A program made the translations under genes and the position numbers. A stretch of 64,000 bases of DNA, from the NCBI GenBank assembly GCA_031291675.1, contig JARLIO010000006.1:1-64000 (forward strand), read 5' to 3'. A model generated the notes under the pieces. The model worked only from the letters and a program-made list of their open reading frames with translations. It searched no databases and had not been told where the DNA came from. Positions 20,171 through 27,405 of the stretch are shown piece after piece (within the stretch, counting starts at the first letter, position 1; every line of letters begins with the position of its first letter). This stretch comes from Azospirillaceae bacterium (lineage in GTDB: Bacteria > Pseudomonadota > Alphaproteobacteria > Azospirillales > Azospirillaceae).

Positions 20171-20437
20171 GCGCCGACACCGAGCCTCTTGCCTTGATCA
20201 CGATCCCGCCCGCCCCAAAGCCGCGGCACCGCAGCAGGAACCGGATACAGAGTGCCAGCGAAACCATGGTCGGTGAACCACAACACGATGACATCATCAC
20301 CGCCAGCCTTGTAGCACCGCCCGCCTCGTCTTTCGGCTGCGGATTCCGCAACCGGCTTTCGGGAAACTCGGCATAGACAGGCGAAAATATCAATGCTTTC
20401 CTGGACGCAGAAAAATTCCAGGGAGAGAGACGCGGCG

Positions 20438-21937
20438 ATGGTCCATGAACTGACCCATTTCATCGGCGGCCGCCATGTTCCGGGCAACTCCGGACGCTGT
20501 GGCGATGTGTTTGATCCGAATATCGGCGCGGTCCAGGCCCGGGTTCCCCTGGCCGCGCGCCGCGAGGTCGAGGCCGCGATTGCCAATGCCGCGGCGGCTC
20601 AGCCGGGCTGGGCCGCGACCAACCCGCAGCGCCGGGCGCGCATTATGATGAAATTCGTGGATCTGCTGAACCGCGAGATGGAGCCTCTGGCCCGACTGCT
20701 GTCCTCCGAACATGGCAAGACCATCCCCGATGCCAAGGGCGACATCCAACGCGGCCTCGAAGTCGCCGAATTCGCGATCGGCATCCCCCACCTGCTGAAG
20801 GGGGAATACAGCGAGAGTGCCGGCACCGGGATCGACGTCTATTCGCTGCGCCAACCGCTGGGCGTCGTTGCCGGCATCACCCCGTTCAATTTCCCGGCAA
20901 TGATTCCGCTGTGGCAGGCGGCACCGGCGATCGCCTGCGGCAATGCCTTCATCCTCAAGCCATCAGAGCGCGACCCCTCGGTTCCGCTGCGCCTGGCCGA
21001 GCTGTTGATCGAGGCCGGTCTGCCCGAAGGCATTTTCAATGTCGTCAATGGCGACAAAGAGGCGGTCGACACCCTGCTGACCGACCCCCGGATCATGGCC
21101 ATCGGCTTTGTCGGGTCCAGCGCGATCGCCAACTATATCTATGCCACGGCGGCAGAGCACGGCAAACGCGCCCAATGCTTCGGCGGCGCCAAAAACCACA
21201 TGATCATCATGCCCGATGCTGATCTCGACCAGGCGGTCGACGCACTGATCGGGGCCGGATTCGGTTCCGCGGGCGAGCGCTGCATGGCGATCTCGGTCGC
21301 AGTGCCCGTCGGTGCGGCGACAGCCGCGGCGCTGGTCGAACGGCTGGTGCCCCGGGTCGAGGCACTGCGAATCGGCATATCGAGCGATGATACCGCCGAT
21401 TACGGCCCGCTGGTCAGCCGCGAGGCTCTGGAACGCGTGCGCAATTACATCGATGTCGGCGTCCAGGAAGGGGCAAGCCTGCGGGTCGATGGCCGCGGTT
21501 TCACGCTGCAAGGCCACGAGCAGGGCTATTTCATTGGCGGCAGCCTGTTCGATCACGTCACGCCCGCGATGCGGATCTATCGGGAGGAGATTTTCGGCCC
21601 GGTGCTGTCGATCGTGCGCGCCGATAGCTATGGCGACGCCCTGCGCCTGCCCAGCGAGCACGCCTACGGCAACGGTGTCGCGATCTTCACCCGTGACGGC
21701 GACACGGCCCGCGATTTCGTCAGCAGGGTCAATGTCGGCATGGTCGGCGTCAATGTTCCGATCCCGGTGCCGATCGCCTATCACACATTCGGCGGCTGGA
21801 AGCGTTCCGGTTTCGGTGACCTGAACCAGCATGGACCGGATTCGATCCGCTTCTACACCAAAACCAAGACGGTGACCTCGCGCTGGCCCTCCGGCGCCCG
21901 GGACGGCGCCAGTTTCGTCATCCCGACAATGAGCTGA
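20438..21937 (+). CDS. mmsA: CoA-acylating methylmalonate-semialdehyde dehydrogenase
   Basis: About 499 residues of the aldehyde dehydrogenase superfamily. The enzyme oxidises methylmalonate semialdehyde to propionyl-CoA with NAD and CoA in valine breakdown. Diagnostic features are GVVAGITPFNFPAMIPLW, the nucleotide-binding GFVGSSAIANYIY, the catalytic cysteine in FGSAGERCMAIS, and the closing SIRFYTKTKTVTSRWP typical of MmsA. The ATG at 20438 has a GGGAGAGAG ribosome binding site. It is followed 21 bases later by a hydroxyisobutyryl-CoA hydrolase-like gene, so the two form a valine-degradation pair. Confidence 0.93.
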   Translation: MVHELTHFIGGRHVPGNSGRCGDVFDPNIGAVQARVPLAARREVEAAIANAAAAQPGWAATNPQRRARIMMKFVDLLNREMEPLARLLSSEHGKTIPDAKGDIQRGLEVAEFAIGIPHLLKGEYSESAGTGIDVYSLRQPLGVVAGITPFNFPAMIPLWQAAPAIACGNAFILKPSERDPSVPLRLAELLIEAGLPEGIFNVVNGDKEAVDTLLTDPRIMAIGFVGSSAIANYIYATAAEHGKRAQCFGGAKNHMIIMPDADLDQAVDALIGAGFGSAGERCMAISVAVPVGAATAAALVERLVPRVEALRIGISSDDTADYGPLVSREALERVRNYIDVGVQEGASLRVDGRGFTLQGHEQGYFIGGSLFDHVTPAMRIYREEIFGPVLSIVRADSYGDALRLPSEHAYGNGVAIFTRDGDTARDFVSRVNVGMVGVNVPIPVPIAYHTFGGWKRSGFGDLNQHGPDSIRFYTKTKTVTSRWPSGARDGASFVIPTMS

Positions 21938-21958
21938 CCCCCGGACAGGAGCCCCCCT

Positions 21959-23017
21959 TTGACCACTGTTCTGGTGCGGGTTGAAGGCCGGATCGGCCGC
22001 ATCACCCTCAACCGCCCCGCCGCGCTCAACGCCCTGACCTTGGACATGGTTCGTCACCTCGATCGCGCCCTGATCGCCTGGGCCCGCGACGATCGGGTTG
22101 CGATCGTGCTGATCGACGGCACCGGCGACCGCGCCTTTTGCGCCGGCGGCGACATCCGCGCCTTGTACGATGCCGCCGGAGCCCAGGACTGGGCGCCGCT
22201 GACAACGTTCTTCCGCGAGGAATACCATCTCAATGCCCGGATCGCCCGCTATCCAAAACCGGTTGTCGCCGTGATGGACGGCATCACCATGGGCGGCGGC
22301 ATCGGCATCGGCGGCCATGCCTCGCACCGCATCGTGACCGAACGCTCGAAGCTGGCAATGCCCGAGACCCGCATCGGCTTCTTCCCTGATGTCGGCGGCA
22401 CCCATCTGCTGGGGATGGCTCCCGGCGAGCTTGGAACCCATCTCGCGCTGACCAGCGGCCGGGTCGACGCCGCCGACGCGATTGCCGGCAATCTCGCGGA
22501 CTGGCTGGTGCCGGTCGAACGGCTCGGCGCGGTGCCGGCGCAGCTCGCCGCCTGCGAATCCGCGGCCGATGTCAGCGCGGCGCTGCAAGCGGTTGCGGTG
22601 ACGCCGCCGCGCGGCGCGCTGGCTGACGCCCGGACCTGGATCGACCGCTGCTATGCCGGAGACCGCGCCGAGGCGATTGTCGCCGCCCTGCGCGACGCGC
22701 CCGAACCCGACGCCCGACAGGCCGCCGGCGAGATCACGGCGAACTCCCCAACCTCGGTCAAGGTCACGCTGGCGGCGCTGCGCCGTGCGCGCCGCCTGGG
22801 AACGATCGAGCCCTGCCTGAACCAGGAATTCCGCCTGGCCCTGTCGCTGACCCGCGATCCGGATTTTCGCGAAGGTGTCCGCGCCGCCGTGGTCGACAAG
22901 GACCGGCAACCGCGGTGGTCGCCCGCGGATTTGCCCGGTGTCAGCGACGCGGCCGTCGAACGCCATTTCCTCGGGCTTGGCGCCGGGGAACTCGGGCTGG
23001 CGGCGATCGAACCATGA
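21959..23017 (+). CDS. 3-hydroxyisobutyryl-CoA hydrolase / enoyl-CoA hydratase family protein
   Basis: A 352-residue crotonase-fold protein. It has the oxyanion-hole segments DRAFCAGGDIRALYD and MDGITMGGGIGIG, then ERSKLAMPETRIGFFPDVGGTHLL with the Glu and Asp that mark the hydrolase branch (HIBYL-CoA hydrolase) rather than plain hydratases. The length of about 350 residues also matches the hydrolases. A TTG start with AGGAG upstream is used. With mmsA it would convert 3-hydroxyisobutyryl-CoA onward in valine catabolism; the intervening dehydrogenase (mmsB) is not in the window. Confidence 0.85.
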   Translation: MTTVLVRVEGRIGRITLNRPAALNALTLDMVRHLDRALIAWARDDRVAIVLIDGTGDRAFCAGGDIRALYDAAGAQDWAPLTTFFREEYHLNARIARYPKPVVAVMDGITMGGGIGIGGHASHRIVTERSKLAMPETRIGFFPDVGGTHLLGMAPGELGTHLALTSGRVDAADAIAGNLADWLVPVERLGAVPAQLAACESAADVSAALQAVAVTPPRGALADARTWIDRCYAGDRAEAIVAALRDAPEPDARQAAGEITANSPTSVKVTLAALRRARRLGTIEPCLNQEFRLALSLTRDPDFREGVRAAVVDKDRQPRWSPADLPGVSDAAVERHFLGLGAGELGLAAIEP

Positions 23018-23246: not shown

Positions 23247-24677
23247 ATGATGGCATCCACCACGACGGACTGGCTCGACGAGGGCCGGATTGCGGACACT
23301 CTGGCCCGGTCCTCGACCGTCGATTCCGGGCAGATCCAGGCCATCCTGACCAAGGCGCGCGAACTCAAGGGCCTCGCCATTGACGAGGTTGCCGCACTGC
23401 TGGCGCTTGAGCAGCCCGACCTGCTGGCGGCCGTGTTTGAAACCGCCCGCTGGGTCAAGAATGAGATCTATGGCCGCCGGATCGTCATGTTCGCCCCGCT
23501 CTATTATTCCAACAGCTGCTGCAATGAATGCGTTTATTGCGCCTTTCGTCGCAGCAATCGGGAGTTGGCACGAAAAACCCTGAGCCAGGCGCAGATCGCG
23601 CGGGAAACCGCCGCTCTGATCGACCAGGGGCATAAGCGCCTGCTGTTGATCGCCGGAGAATCGGTTACCGACGCCGGTTTCCAGCATCTGCTCGATGCCA
23701 TCGCCACCGTCTATTCGGTCAAGCGCGGGTCGGGCGAAATCCGCCGGGTCAATGTCAATGTCGCGCCGCTCTCGGTCGAGGAATTCCGCGCCTTGAAGGC
23801 CGCCGGGATCGGCACCTATCAGCTGTTCCAGGAAACCTATCACCGCAAGACCTATGCCGAGGTCCATATCGCCGGGCGCAAGAGCGATTTCGACTGGCGT
23901 CTCAACGCCATCGACCGCGCCATGGAGGCCGGGATCGACGATGTCGGCATCGGCCCGCTGCTCGGTCTGGCCGATTGGCGCTTCGACCTGCTGGCGATGA
24001 TGCAGCACATTGCCCATCTTGAGGAGCGGTTTGGCGTCGGCTGCCACACCATCAGCGTGCCGCGCATGGAACCGGCGCTGGGCTCGACGATGTCGGAGGC
24101 TCCGCCGCATCACGTCACCGATGCCGATTTCAAGAAGATCGTCGCCGTGCTGCGCCTCGCCGTGCCCTATACCGGGATCATCATGAGCACCCGGGAAACG
24201 GCGGAAATGCGCCGTGACACCTTCTCGCTGGGCGTGTCCCAGGTTTCGGGCGGCAGCCGCACCGATCCCGGTGGCTATGCTGACGCCGCGGACGCCGCCG
24301 GCGCCGCCGCAGCCGCAGCCGCCGCGGATGATGCGGGACAGTTCCAGGTCGGGGATCACCGCTCACTCGACGACGTGGTCCGCGACATCGCCGAGGTCGG
24401 CTTCACCCCGTCCTTCTGCACCGCCTGCTACCGCATGGGCCGCACCGGCCGCGACTTCATGGACCTGGCCAAGCCCGGCCTGATCCGCGAAATGTGCGGC
24501 CCCAACGCGCTGTCGACCTTTGTTGAATATCTTGAGGATTATGCCTCCCCCGCGACGGTCGAAGCCGGGGAACGCGCGATCCGCCGGGAACTCGACGCGA
24601 TGGACCCCAAGATCCGGCATTATTCCGAAATCATGATCGCCAAGGTCCGCGACGGCAAACGCGATGTCTTCAGATAA
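23247..24677 (+). CDS. hydG: [FeFe]-hydrogenase maturation radical SAM tyrosine lyase HydG
   Basis: The 476-residue enzyme cleaves tyrosine to p-cresol and gives the CO and cyanide ligands of the hydrogenase H-cluster as an iron synthon. The radical SAM cysteine motif is CNECVYC in YYSNSCCNECVYCAFRRSNR near residue 95. The C-terminal second-cluster motif is C-x2-C-x22-C, from CTACYRMGRTG to REMC. A run of about 25 residues made almost only of Ala and Asp (around 24283-24345) is inserted between SRTDPGGY and GQFQVGDHRSLDDV, where other HydG proteins have a short acidic linker. AAGGAG precedes the ATG. The stop overlaps aspA by 14 bases. Confidence 0.95.
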   Translation: MMASTTTDWLDEGRIADTLARSSTVDSGQIQAILTKARELKGLAIDEVAALLALEQPDLLAAVFETARWVKNEIYGRRIVMFAPLYYSNSCCNECVYCAFRRSNRELARKTLSQAQIARETAALIDQGHKRLLLIAGESVTDAGFQHLLDAIATVYSVKRGSGEIRRVNVNVAPLSVEEFRALKAAGIGTYQLFQETYHRKTYAEVHIAGRKSDFDWRLNAIDRAMEAGIDDVGIGPLLGLADWRFDLLAMMQHIAHLEERFGVGCHTISVPRMEPALGSTMSEAPPHHVTDADFKKIVAVLRLAVPYTGIIMSTRETAEMRRDTFSLGVSQVSGGSRTDPGGYADAADAAGAAAAAAAADDAGQFQVGDHRSLDDVVRDIAEVGFTPSFCTACYRMGRTGRDFMDLAKPGLIREMCGPNALSTFVEYLEDYASPATVEAGERAIRRELDAMDPKIRHYSEIMIAKVRDGKRDVFR

Positions 24678-26076
24678 GCCGGACCTGTCCGGGCGCGTCG
24701 AAACCGATCTGCTGGGCGAGAAACGCATCCCAGCCGACGCGCTCTGGGGCATCCACACCGCCCGCGCGCTGGAAAATTTCACCGTCAGCGGCCGCCCGGT
24801 CCATACCGAGCTGATCCGGGCGATGCTCGACGTCAAGCGCGCCTGCGCCGCGACCAACCGCGACCTCGGCTATCTTGACCCGGCCGTCGCCGCGGCGATC
24901 CAGGCCGCGTGCGATGACCTCGGCGCCGGGACTCTGCCCGGGCCGATCGCGGTCGATTCACTGCAAGGCGGCGCCGGAACCTCGTTCAACATGAACATCA
25001 ACGAGGTCGTCGCCAACCTTGCCGAGGAGCGACTCGGCGGCCGGCGGGGCGACTATCGCCGGGTCGACCCCATCGGCCACGTCAATCTGCACCAGTCGAC
25101 CAACGACACCTTTCCCACGGCGCTCAAGATCGCCGCGATCCGGTTGCTGCGTCGCCTGGAACCGGCGATCGCCACCTTGCAGAGCGCGTTCCAGGACAAG
25201 GAGCGGGCCTTTGCCGACATCGTCAAGATCGGGCGGACCCAGTTGCAGGATGCCTGCCCGATCACCGTCGGCGCGGAATTCTCGGCCTGGGCCGAGGCGC
25301 TGTCACGCGACCGCTGGCGGGTCTTCAAATGCGAGGAACGGCTGCGGGTCGTCAATCTGGGCGGCACCGCGATCGGTACCGGCATGGCGGCGCCGCAGCG
25401 CTACATTTTCCAGGTCGTGGAAACCCTGCGGGCGATGACCGGCCTCGGCCTGGCCCGTGCCGAGAATCTGGTCGACGCGACCCAGAATGCCGACAGTTTC
25501 GTCGAGGTCTCGGGCATCCTGAAGGCCCATGCCGTCAATCTATTCAAGATCTCCTCGGATTTGCGGCTGCTGAGTTCGGGCCCCAAGACCGGGTTTGGCG
25601 AAATCCGCCTGCCGCCGGTGCAGGCCGGATCCAGCATCATGCCGGGCAAGATCAATCCGGTCATCTGCGAGGCGGTCGGCCAGGCGGCGCTGCAGGTGAT
25701 GGGCAATGACACCGTGGTTGGTCTCGCCGCCCAGTCGGGGCAGCTCGAGCTCAACGCTTTTCTGCCGCTGCTGGCCCAGGCCCTGCTCGACAGCCTGTCG
25801 CAGCTCGAAGCGGCCTGCACCATGTTCCGCTGCCGCTGCATCGAAGGCCTCAGCGTGGATAACGCGCAATGCCAACGCCACGTCGCCGAGTCCTGGGCGG
25901 TGGTCGTCGCGCTGGTGGGCCGGCTGGGCTATGACACGGCATCGGCGATCGGCCACGAGGCTCGCGAAACCGGGAAATCCGTCACCCAGATTGTCAGCGA
26001 ACGGGGCCTGCTCGATCCCACGACGCTGGAACAGCTGCTCTCGGCCGATGCGATGACCGCACTCGGCCATCGCTGA
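24664..26076 (+). CDS. aspA: Aspartate ammonia-lyase
   Basis: A 470-residue member of the fumarase/aspartase superfamily that splits aspartate into fumarate and ammonia. It shows the superfamily signature GSSIMPGKINP, plus DSLQGGAGTSFNMNINEV and HVNLHQSTNDTFPTALKIAA; the latter substrate-binding segments favour aspartase or class II fumarase. It overlaps hydG by 14 bases and is followed by hydF, so it belongs to the maturation unit. From memory, an aspartase-like gene also sits in hyd maturation operons of some other bacteria, perhaps to provide ammonia for the bridging amine of the H-cluster; that role is inference. Confidence 0.88.
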   Translation: MSSDKPDLSGRVETDLLGEKRIPADALWGIHTARALENFTVSGRPVHTELIRAMLDVKRACAATNRDLGYLDPAVAAAIQAACDDLGAGTLPGPIAVDSLQGGAGTSFNMNINEVVANLAEERLGGRRGDYRRVDPIGHVNLHQSTNDTFPTALKIAAIRLLRRLEPAIATLQSAFQDKERAFADIVKIGRTQLQDACPITVGAEFSAWAEALSRDRWRVFKCEERLRVVNLGGTAIGTGMAAPQRYIFQVVETLRAMTGLGLARAENLVDATQNADSFVEVSGILKAHAVNLFKISSDLRLLSSGPKTGFGEIRLPPVQAGSSIMPGKINPVICEAVGQAALQVMGNDTVVGLAAQSGQLELNAFLPLLAQALLDSLSQLEAACTMFRCRCIEGLSVDNAQCQRHVAESWAVVVALVGRLGYDTASAIGHEARETGKSVTQIVSERGLLDPTTLEQLLSADAMTALGHR

Positions 26077-26083
26077 CACGGTT

Positions 26084-26100
26084 GCCCGGGGCCCCCGGGC
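26084..26100. other. 17-bp GC palindrome between aspA and hydF
   Basis: GCCCGGGG-C-CCCCGGGC is a perfect inverted repeat eight bases after the aspA stop and 34 bases before the hydF start. It could form a strong hairpin that slows transcription, protects the upstream mRNA or separates expression of hydF. There is no T-run after it. Confidence 0.55.
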
Positions 26101-26133
26101 ACGATCTTGGACTTTGTTGATGAGGGTACCACG

Positions 26134-27405
26134 ATGCAGGAAACCCCCAAGGGGCTGCGCCTCCATATCGGTCTGTTCGGCCGGCGCAATGTCGGCAAAT
26201 CGAGCCTGATCAACGCGCTGGTCGGGCAATCGATCGCGATCGTCTCGGAGGTGCCGGGGACGACCACCGACCCGGTCGAGAAATCGATGGAAATGGCGCC
26301 GGTCGGACCGGTGGTGTTCATCGACACCGCCGGCATCGATGATACCGGGGCGCTGGGCGCGCTGCGCATGGAGAAGACGGCGCGCTGTCTGGAACGGACC
26401 GATGTCGCGGTGATCGTCGCCGGCCCCGAAGGGTTGGGCGACTTCGAACAGGGCCTGATCGACCTGCTGCGCGACAAGGCGACGCCGTTCTGCATCGCCT
26501 TCAACAAGTGCGATCTGTCCGACAGCAACGGCGCCGCCGCGCCGGACGCCGCCGATCGCGACCGGCTCGACCGCGATCAGGTCCCTCACATTGCGGTCTC
26601 CGCGATCCGCGGGACCCGGATCGACGCGCTCAAGACGATGATTGCCGGGCTGGTGCCCCAAGGCGCCGACCAGGGCGGCATGCAGGAGCCGCATCTGCTG
26701 GGTGATCTGCTGCGCCCGGGCGATCTGGTCATTCTGGTGGTCCCGATCGACCTGGGCGCGCCCAAGGGTCGGCTGATCCTGCCCCAGGTCATGGCGATCC
26801 GCGACTGTCTGGATAGCGATGCCACCTGCCTGATCGTCAAGGAGCGCGAACTGCGCGACGCCTTTGCCGGGCTGGCGCGCAAGCCACGACTGGTCGTCTG
26901 CGATTCCCAGGTGGTGCTGAAGGCGGCAGCGGACACGCCGCCCGATATCCCGCTGACGACCTTCTCGATCCTGATGGCCCGCCTCAAAGGGGACCTGATC
27001 CGGCTGGCCGAAGGCGCGGCCGCCATCCACCGCCTGCGCCCCGGGGACCGGGTGCTGATCGCCGAATCCTGCACCCACCATCCGCTGGCCGATGATATCG
27101 GCCGGGTCAAAATCCCGCGCTGGCTGCGCCAGTTCGCCGGCGGCCGGCTCGAGGTCGACAATATCGCCGGTGGCGATTTTCCCGCCGATTTGTCGCCCTA
27201 TGATCTGGTGGTCCAGTGTGGCGGCTGCATGGCCAACCGCAAGCAGATCCTGTGCCGGCTCAACCAGGCCACCGACCAGGGCATCCCGATGACCAATTAT
27301 GGCGTTGCGATCTCGGTCGTGCAGGGTGTGTTGCCCCGGGCGCTGGAATGCTTCCCGGCGGCGCGCGCCGCCTATGACCGGGCGCTGGCCGCTGAGCGGC
27401 CCTGA
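26134..27405 (+). CDS. hydF: [FeFe]-hydrogenase maturation GTPase HydF
   Basis: About 423 residues. HydF is the scaffold on which the two-iron subcluster is completed before transfer to the hydrogenase. The GTPase domain has the P-loop GRRNVGKSSL, VPGTTTDPV, DTAGIDD and the NKCD base-recognition motif. The C-terminal cluster-binding domain has SCTHHPL and, about 50 residues later, QCGGCMANRKQ, matching the C-x-H...C-x-x-C cluster site of the family. The ATG at 26134 has GAGGG upstream; a TTG at 26107 extends the frame but lacks a good site. Confidence 0.95.
   Translation: MQETPKGLRLHIGLFGRRNVGKSSLINALVGQSIAIVSEVPGTTTDPVEKSMEMAPVGPVVFIDTAGIDDTGALGALRMEKTARCLERTDVAVIVAGPEGLGDFEQGLIDLLRDKATPFCIAFNKCDLSDSNGAAAPDAADRDRLDRDQVPHIAVSAIRGTRIDALKTMIAGLVPQGADQGGMQEPHLLGDLLRPGDLVILVVPIDLGAPKGRLILPQVMAIRDCLDSDATCLIVKERELRDAFAGLARKPRLVVCDSQVVLKAAADTPPDIPLTTFSILMARLKGDLIRLAEGAAAIHRLRPGDRVLIAESCTHHPLADDIGRVKIPRWLRQFAGGRLEVDNIAGGDFPADLSPYDLVVQCGGCMANRKQILCRLNQATDQGIPMTNYGVAISVVQGVLPRALECFPAARAAYDRALAAERP

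Follow-up and report, generated by a model that had tools for sequence, protein, structure and literature searches.

The stretch of DNA analysed here (the window) consists of 64,000 nucleotides (nt) from an Azospirillaceae bacterium (assembly GCA_031291675.1, contig JARLIO010000006.1, positions 1 to 64,000 of the forward strand) and represents contig C10 of a genome of 5.87 Mb that is divided over 99 contigs. The subject of this study is the cluster hydG-aspA-hydF within it, in which a gene for an aspartase (AspA), i.e. an aspartate ammonia-lyase, lies between two genes for the maturation of the H-cluster of [FeFe]-hydrogenases. The genes and the protein segments that figure in the analysis are the following:

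23250..24677 (ATG also at 23247), + strand: hydG, radical S-adenosylmethionine (SAM) tyrosine lyase of H-cluster maturation (TIGR03955 523 bits, cut-off 312)
24664..26076, + strand: aspA, assigned to the hydF-linked subfamily (PRK12273; clade support 100/99; signature 12/12)
25312..25347, + strand: AspA residues 217-228, the signature core (R217, W218, F221, K222, R226, R228; clade-specific columns, held-out test)
25456..25458, + strand: AspA R265, a signature residue (training set: 19/19 clade members against 1/20 other aspartases)
26134..27405 (alternative TTG at 26107), + strand: hydF, GTPase scaffold of H-cluster maturation (TIGR03918 536 bits, cut-off 326)
26818..26850, + strand: HydF residues 229-239 (D229, R238, E239), which covary with the presence of the aspartase partner
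26917..26937, + strand: HydF residues 262-268 (L262, K263, A266, D267), likewise covarying with partner presence
27118..27132, + strand: HydF residues 329-333 (R329, W330, R332, Q333) in the C-terminal domain, likewise covarying with partner presence

The end of hydG and the start of aspA overlap by 14 nt and aspA directly adjoins hydF, with 57 nt between its stop and the hydF start; the cluster with its overlapping aspA had been recognized in an earlier sequence-only reading of the window and is borne out by the coordinates and the NCBIfam scores. The HydG translation carries CX3CX2C and, C-terminally, CX2CX22C, which we take to be the relevant motifs, and HydF contains the Pfam domains HydF_dimer (188-286) and HydF_tetramer (291-405). 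The protein encoded between them matches PRK12273 (632 bits, cut-off 510), stays below the cut-off of the aspA equivalog TIGR00839 (518 against 681) and is 44-57% identical to the members of its own clade (see below), as might be expected if it were another amino-acid lyase, no longer an aspartase, that feeds the same step. We consider such a change of substrate decidedly improbable, for the protein possesses all four segments that we take to form the aspartase active site (GGAGTSxNMN, QSTND, GRTQLQDA and GSSIMPGKxN, at 102, 144, 190 and 322) and the solved protein that matches it best (8rj1) is an aspartate ammonia-lyase. Judged by these features, the linked protein would be catalytically active as an aspartase.

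Both the linkage of aspA with hydF and the role of ammonium are already published (Pagnier 2024, PMC11736057). In the scheme given there HydG produces an Fe(CO)2(CN) synthon, HydE a diiron precursor, and HydF carries this precursor during the synthesis of the dithiomethylamine bridge. The number of hydF nodes with aspA, ilvA or sdaA within 20 open reading frames amounts to 701, a share of 79% according to the authors, who count 887 authentic hydF genes, and in the hyd operons with aspA the gene likewise lies beside hydF and is proposed to be the ammonium source for the bridge. In vitro, E. coli AspA together with 15N-aspartate labels the bridge nitrogen, and the ammonium may come from either of two lyases (PMC11736057).

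In a tree of 47 rows the 18 hydF-linked aspartases, among them the window copy, are all placed together with the unlinked L235 in a single clade (support 100/99), outside which falls the second aspartase of the window's genome. This second copy (the sequence-only reading had raised the question whether a housekeeping aspartase exists) is encoded on contig C23, scores over the aspA equivalog cut-off (TIGR00839 708, cut-off 681) and is flanked by genes for a type II asparaginase and a DctA-type transporter. A larger tree (FastTree, 126 proteins) also unites all 68 linked copies (clade support 99), and the clade takes in just three unlinked members, L235, L310 and L320; L287 is absent from this tree, as are some aspartase matches without a locus from the phylum of genome G408. 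The clade is marked by a distinct set of residues: 19 columns distinguish the 19 clade members from 20 further aspartases, a comparison that did not include L238, L107 and six fumarase-like rows, and 12 of the columns, namely Q173, Q177, R217, W218, Y/F221, K222, R226, R228, G234, A264, R265 and A321, were taken as the signature before the held-out search described below. All 12 are found in the window AspA, against 0-3 in the 20 other aspartases. By alignment, the solved proteins 8rj1, 3ocf, 3oce and 1jsw lack the R217-W218-F/Y221-K222-R226-R228-R265 signature that the linked AspA has. The housekeeping enzyme 1jsw, which we take to be E. coli AspA, does have the family and the active-site segments in common with the linked one.

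For the held-out set, 398 genomes of the phylum were searched with the profile of the 19 members, and 80 loci were considered: all 52 new matches of at least 695 bits among those listed, plus 28 new matches below 677. Every one of the 49 loci with at least 9 of the 12 residues has hydF at a distance of at most 2.6 kb, whereas hydF is present in the fetched stretch of none of the 27 loci with 0-2 residues; it should be noted that the threshold of 9 was picked after the results were seen and that many of the loci are close relatives and not independent. One of the 49 (L346) stems from the low-scoring group. The remaining four loci are L287 (12/12, with hydF 147 bp away) and three intermediate ones (L321, L310 and L320). 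Similarly, a search for aspartases in 25 genomes, 24 of which are HydF-positive, yielded six with an aspartase over the limit, and all six have a copy beside hydF. The co-occurrence of aspA and hydF, a check proposed in the sequence-only reading, is therefore not random. By tree and signature, the aspartases linked to hydF constitute a subfamily of their own, distinct from the housekeeping enzyme.

That all linked copies fall within one clade is also what shared ancestry alone would produce, that is, if aspA and hydF merely travel together by transfer as parts of an operon and the signature only marks their common ancestor. We hold this to be very improbable indeed. Two of the three unlinked clade members show an eroded signature (L310 with 6/12 and L320 with 5/12 residues, both without hydF in the stretch); the third, L235, keeps it in full (12/12), and its genome (G514) has a HydF on another contig. 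The genome of L310 (G455), which by its number we take to belong to the sample of 119 genomes discussed below, is not among the 66 of that sample with a HydF match. An apparent HydG neighbour of L310 proved to be ThiH (TIGR02351 508 bits, cut-off 380; HydG model 192, cut-off 312), so that its eroded clade aspartase lies near thiH (L310, 1591-6432) and was counted as unlinked. The second argument against mere joint transfer comes from HydF itself.

The HydF alignment comprises 139 proteins. Of these, 70 have a clade aspartase as partner (in 69 the genes are linked, the other being that of G514), and for the remaining 69 no such partner is known; 51 of the 70 partner-bearing rows were drawn because of their aspartase. 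Several HydF residues differ strongly in frequency between the two groups (with against without partner): D267 69/70 against 10/69, D229 69/70 against 16/69, K263 68/70 against 16/69, L262 59/70 against 1/69, R329 69/70 against 30/69 and W330 69/70 against 35/69. The combination of D229, K263, D267, R329 and W330 is found in 68 of the 70 HydF proteins with a partner and in one of the 69 without. At each of the 11 positions compared, the window HydF shows the majority residue. To take phylogeny into account we used a HydF tree of 135 rows from which 13 of the top columns were excluded, L090, L092, L093 and L094 being dropped from these tests. The partner label changes 19 times on this tree, at least 11 of which on starred branches, and among 11 independent contrasts there are on average 9.4 in which D229 goes with the partner and 0.1 in which it goes against it (median sign-test p 0.004, uncorrected); the corresponding figures are 8.1 and 0 for D267 and 7.2 and 0 for K263. 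Such repeated changes, with the HydF residues following them, argue against shared transfer as the sole cause. The top ten of the 253 HydF columns all lie within 229-239, 262-267 and 329-333 (the median column score being 0.34). In 400 simulations of the label on the same tree (15-23 changes) the number of columns so strongly associated was at most 2, against 11 observed; nine of the 11 lie in or next to the three segments and two (208 and 403) elsewhere.

The covarying segments belong to the Pfam dimerization domain of HydF (188-286) and its C-terminal 'tetramerization' domain (291-405), the latter of which we equate with the C-terminal domain described as an Fe-S cluster domain (PMC7450098). 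Together with the signature of AspA, this suggests the following mechanism. HydG would make the Fe(CO)2(CN) synthon and HydE, encoded on another contig, would lead to the diiron precursor, which HydF would hold during assembly of the dithiomethylamine bridge. The linked aspartase would convert aspartate into fumarate and ammonium, and the ammonium would become the bridge nitrogen via the glycine-cleavage H- and T-proteins (in the window's genome, the genes for H-protein and GcvT adjoin each other on contig C66). The AspA helix 217-228, with R265, would dock on the dimerization and C-terminal cluster domains of HydF (around 229-239, 262-268 and 329-333), so that the ammonium is set free where the bridge is made. 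We thus infer that a dedicated aspartase works with HydF to feed ammonium to bridge synthesis and that delivery at HydF would be local; docking of the linked AspA on HydF, for which the covariation is the basis, is probable. Taken as a whole, the reading of an aspartase subfamily that is dedicated to, and has co-evolved with, HydF, most likely docks on it and releases ammonium at the bridge site, as part of a scattered maturation set, is in our view rather more probable than its negation. We are more reserved, and just short of evenly inclined, regarding the stricter formulation that a physical HydF-AspA complex frees ammonium at the bridge site and forms a fourth, optional maturase-like component, which is lost often, with the contact side of HydF then also lost.

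Several observations weigh against the interpretation. The enzyme employed in the in vitro work, E. coli AspA, does not show the signature when aligned, yet nitrogen was supplied (PMC11736057), which means that docking is not required in vitro. In L321 the aspartase retains 7/12 signature residues and has lost R217, W218, Y221 and R265, though hydF lies at a distance of only 19 bp and the HydF of this locus retains D229, K263, D267, R329 and W330 (among the positions compared only E239 and R332 are changed). Four unlinked HydF proteins (L159, L086, L167 and L183), for which no partner is known, keep D229, D267, R329 and W330, and the solved HydF proteins 3qq5, 5lad and 5kh0, whose alignment extends through the covarying segments, keep K263, D267, R329 and W330. 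Moreover, the single-column sign tests rest on 11 independent contrasts and are uncorrected for 253 columns, and the AlphaFold model of the aspartase (two rows; predicted local distance difference test 48.8, predicted template modelling score 0.41) was too poor to place residues and was not used.

Because the four unlinked HydF proteins keep much of the signature, our confidence in a docked aspartase is lowered and more weight goes to the possibility that the covarying residues mark something other than a docking site, and that both proteins have adapted to an ammonium-rich mode of maturation (HydF, for instance, as an ammonium-stimulated GTPase and AspA in its regulation or kinetics). The GTPase of HydF is indeed stimulated by ammonia (PMC11736057), the covarying residues have been placed by sequence alignment only, and in L321 much of the AspA side is lost while the HydF side is mostly kept. 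Nevertheless, the ten HydF positions that best follow the partner lie in the dimerization and C-terminal domains, outside the GTPase domain, and in L078 the two sides have eroded together: its aspartase retains 5/12 residues and its HydF is the sole linked one without D229, D267, R329 and W330. Parallel adaptation of this kind is in our estimate unlikely, though it deserves serious consideration.

HydF is rare in the class: counting the window's own genome in either set, 15 of 385 class genomes and 4 of 39 relatives reach the HydF cut-off. In the phylum of G408, 66 of 119 genomes do so. Besides the window, 87 hydF neighbourhoods were examined, namely 16 from the class and the relatives, 11 from genome contigs and 60 of the 66 from the phylum of G408. 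An aspartase lies within 2 kb of hydF in 4/16, 1/11 and 12/60 of these, respectively, i.e. in 17 of the 87. The linked aspartase is therefore dispensable, which also tells against the proposed role. Either hydG or hydE is found within the fetched stretch around hydF in 5/16, 3/11 and 42/60 of the neighbourhoods. In contrast to the 25 genomes searched above, HydF-positive genomes in the phylum of G408 commonly have aspartases at a distance from hydF. Two genomes of the same family as the window's (L084 and L085) have the order hydG-aspA-hydF-hydE, and a third genome of the genus of those two (G389) has neither a HydF over the cut-off nor an aspartase over the limit. In genome G345 two HydF-like genes are adjacent (L079, 9054-11496), one above and one below the HydF cut-off.

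The position of aspA is specifically beside hydF, and in 30 of the 51 held-out hydF-linked aspartase loci hydG and hydE are both missing from the stretch fetched. This bears on the question which product of the enzyme matters. Fumarate respiration was raised by Pagnier et al. as a reason for the use of aspartate over serine (PMC11736057), and the linked aspartase might accordingly serve a soluble metabolite role, on the fumarate side. Such a role would not lead one to expect the specific position beside hydF, nor the AspA signature and the covariation in HydF, and we judge it quite improbable. The sequence-only reading is supported on the whole, for neither of the findings that would have counted against it, a genome devoid of [FeFe]-hydrogenase or a random association of aspA, was obtained. 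It had proposed that the product, either ammonia or fumarate, is used in H-cluster assembly or its control: the ammonia part agrees with the published in vitro 15N labelling (PMC11736057) and with the covariation, which points to a HydF-dedicated enzyme, and the fumarate part has found no support.

As had been stated in that reading, hydE and hydA do not occur within the 64-kb window, and the oddity this seemed to imply dissolves once the whole genome is considered. The sole PF02906 match in the genome lies on contig C90 (299 bits, over the cut-off) and belongs to a catalytic-type [FeFe]-hydrogenase (L009, 12321-14168) that combines PF02906 with PF02256 and exceeds the cut-off of TIGR02512; its best-scoring group model is A6, with a score of 725, below that model's cut-off of 765. 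The gene is directly preceded by one for a protein (L009, 10306-12324) in which a NuoF-type Fe-S region is fused to a GltD-like pyridine-nucleotide oxidoreductase. HydE is encoded on contig C84 (L010, 9079-10149; 294.9 bits, cut-off 254.6), just downstream of acetate kinase, and is the sole HydE over the cut-off; the other match of the HydE model falls inside hydG. As HydE, HydF and HydG and a client hydrogenase with an H-cluster domain are all encoded in the same genome, the idea of an incomplete or altered pathway was rejected and the lack of hydE and hydA in the cluster reflects gene scattering, as is common among the linked loci at large. The genome encodes a complete but scattered [FeFe]-hydrogenase maturation set, of which the cluster is one part and in which the separation of hydE is ordinary. 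Full maturase sets have been reported for several alphaproteobacteria (Degli Esposti et al. 2016, PMC4967309), including Rhodospirillales relatives, as in the present genome; the main text of that paper makes no mention of aspartase or aspartate, and here hydE resides on a separate contig. In the HydE tree the protein groups with a Margulisbacteria HydE (100/100) and not with the HydE of the two same-family genomes, whereas in a quick HydG tree the window HydG groups with that of the same two genomes (support 97), which implies that hydE has its own history.

With respect to the surroundings of the cluster, the valine-degradation pair that had been noted directly upstream is confirmed by NCBIfam as methylmalonate-semialdehyde dehydrogenase and 3-hydroxyisobutyryl-CoA hydrolase (window 20393-23017, about 230 bp before hydG); no link to maturation turned up and no search aimed at one was made. 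A G+C-rich 8-bp hairpin is located between aspA and hydF (26083-26101) and was rejected as a meaningful element, the whole stretch folding no better than shuffles (z -0.77). A scan for sigma-70-type promoters found none on the + strand, and a terminator scan gave fewer sites than in shuffles.

The cluster and the association of aspA with hydF are themselves ordinary and published; what appears to be new is the separate hydF-linked aspartase subfamily with a co-evolving HydF. In PMC11736057 the E. coli enzyme was assayed, and its main text contains no wording on a clade, subfamily, phylogeny or channel, whereas here a separate subfamily is found together with a matching HydF signature. A literature search, which covered few subscription journals, found no description of a hydF-linked aspartase subfamily or of a HydF-AspA complex, and neither is found in the accessible text of the HydF papers PMC12752695 and PMC13360658.

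With this finding, the route by which bridge nitrogen reaches the H-cluster in the cell can be addressed directly, by mutation of named residues. In addition, a dedicated subfamily may offer a partner enzyme that is better suited to the in vitro production of active [FeFe]-hydrogenase, and the signature lets annotators tell the hydrogenase-assembly aspartase from the housekeeping one. Finally, since the solved HydF proteins keep K263, D267, R329 and W330, their organisms might be expected to carry a partner aspartase as well.

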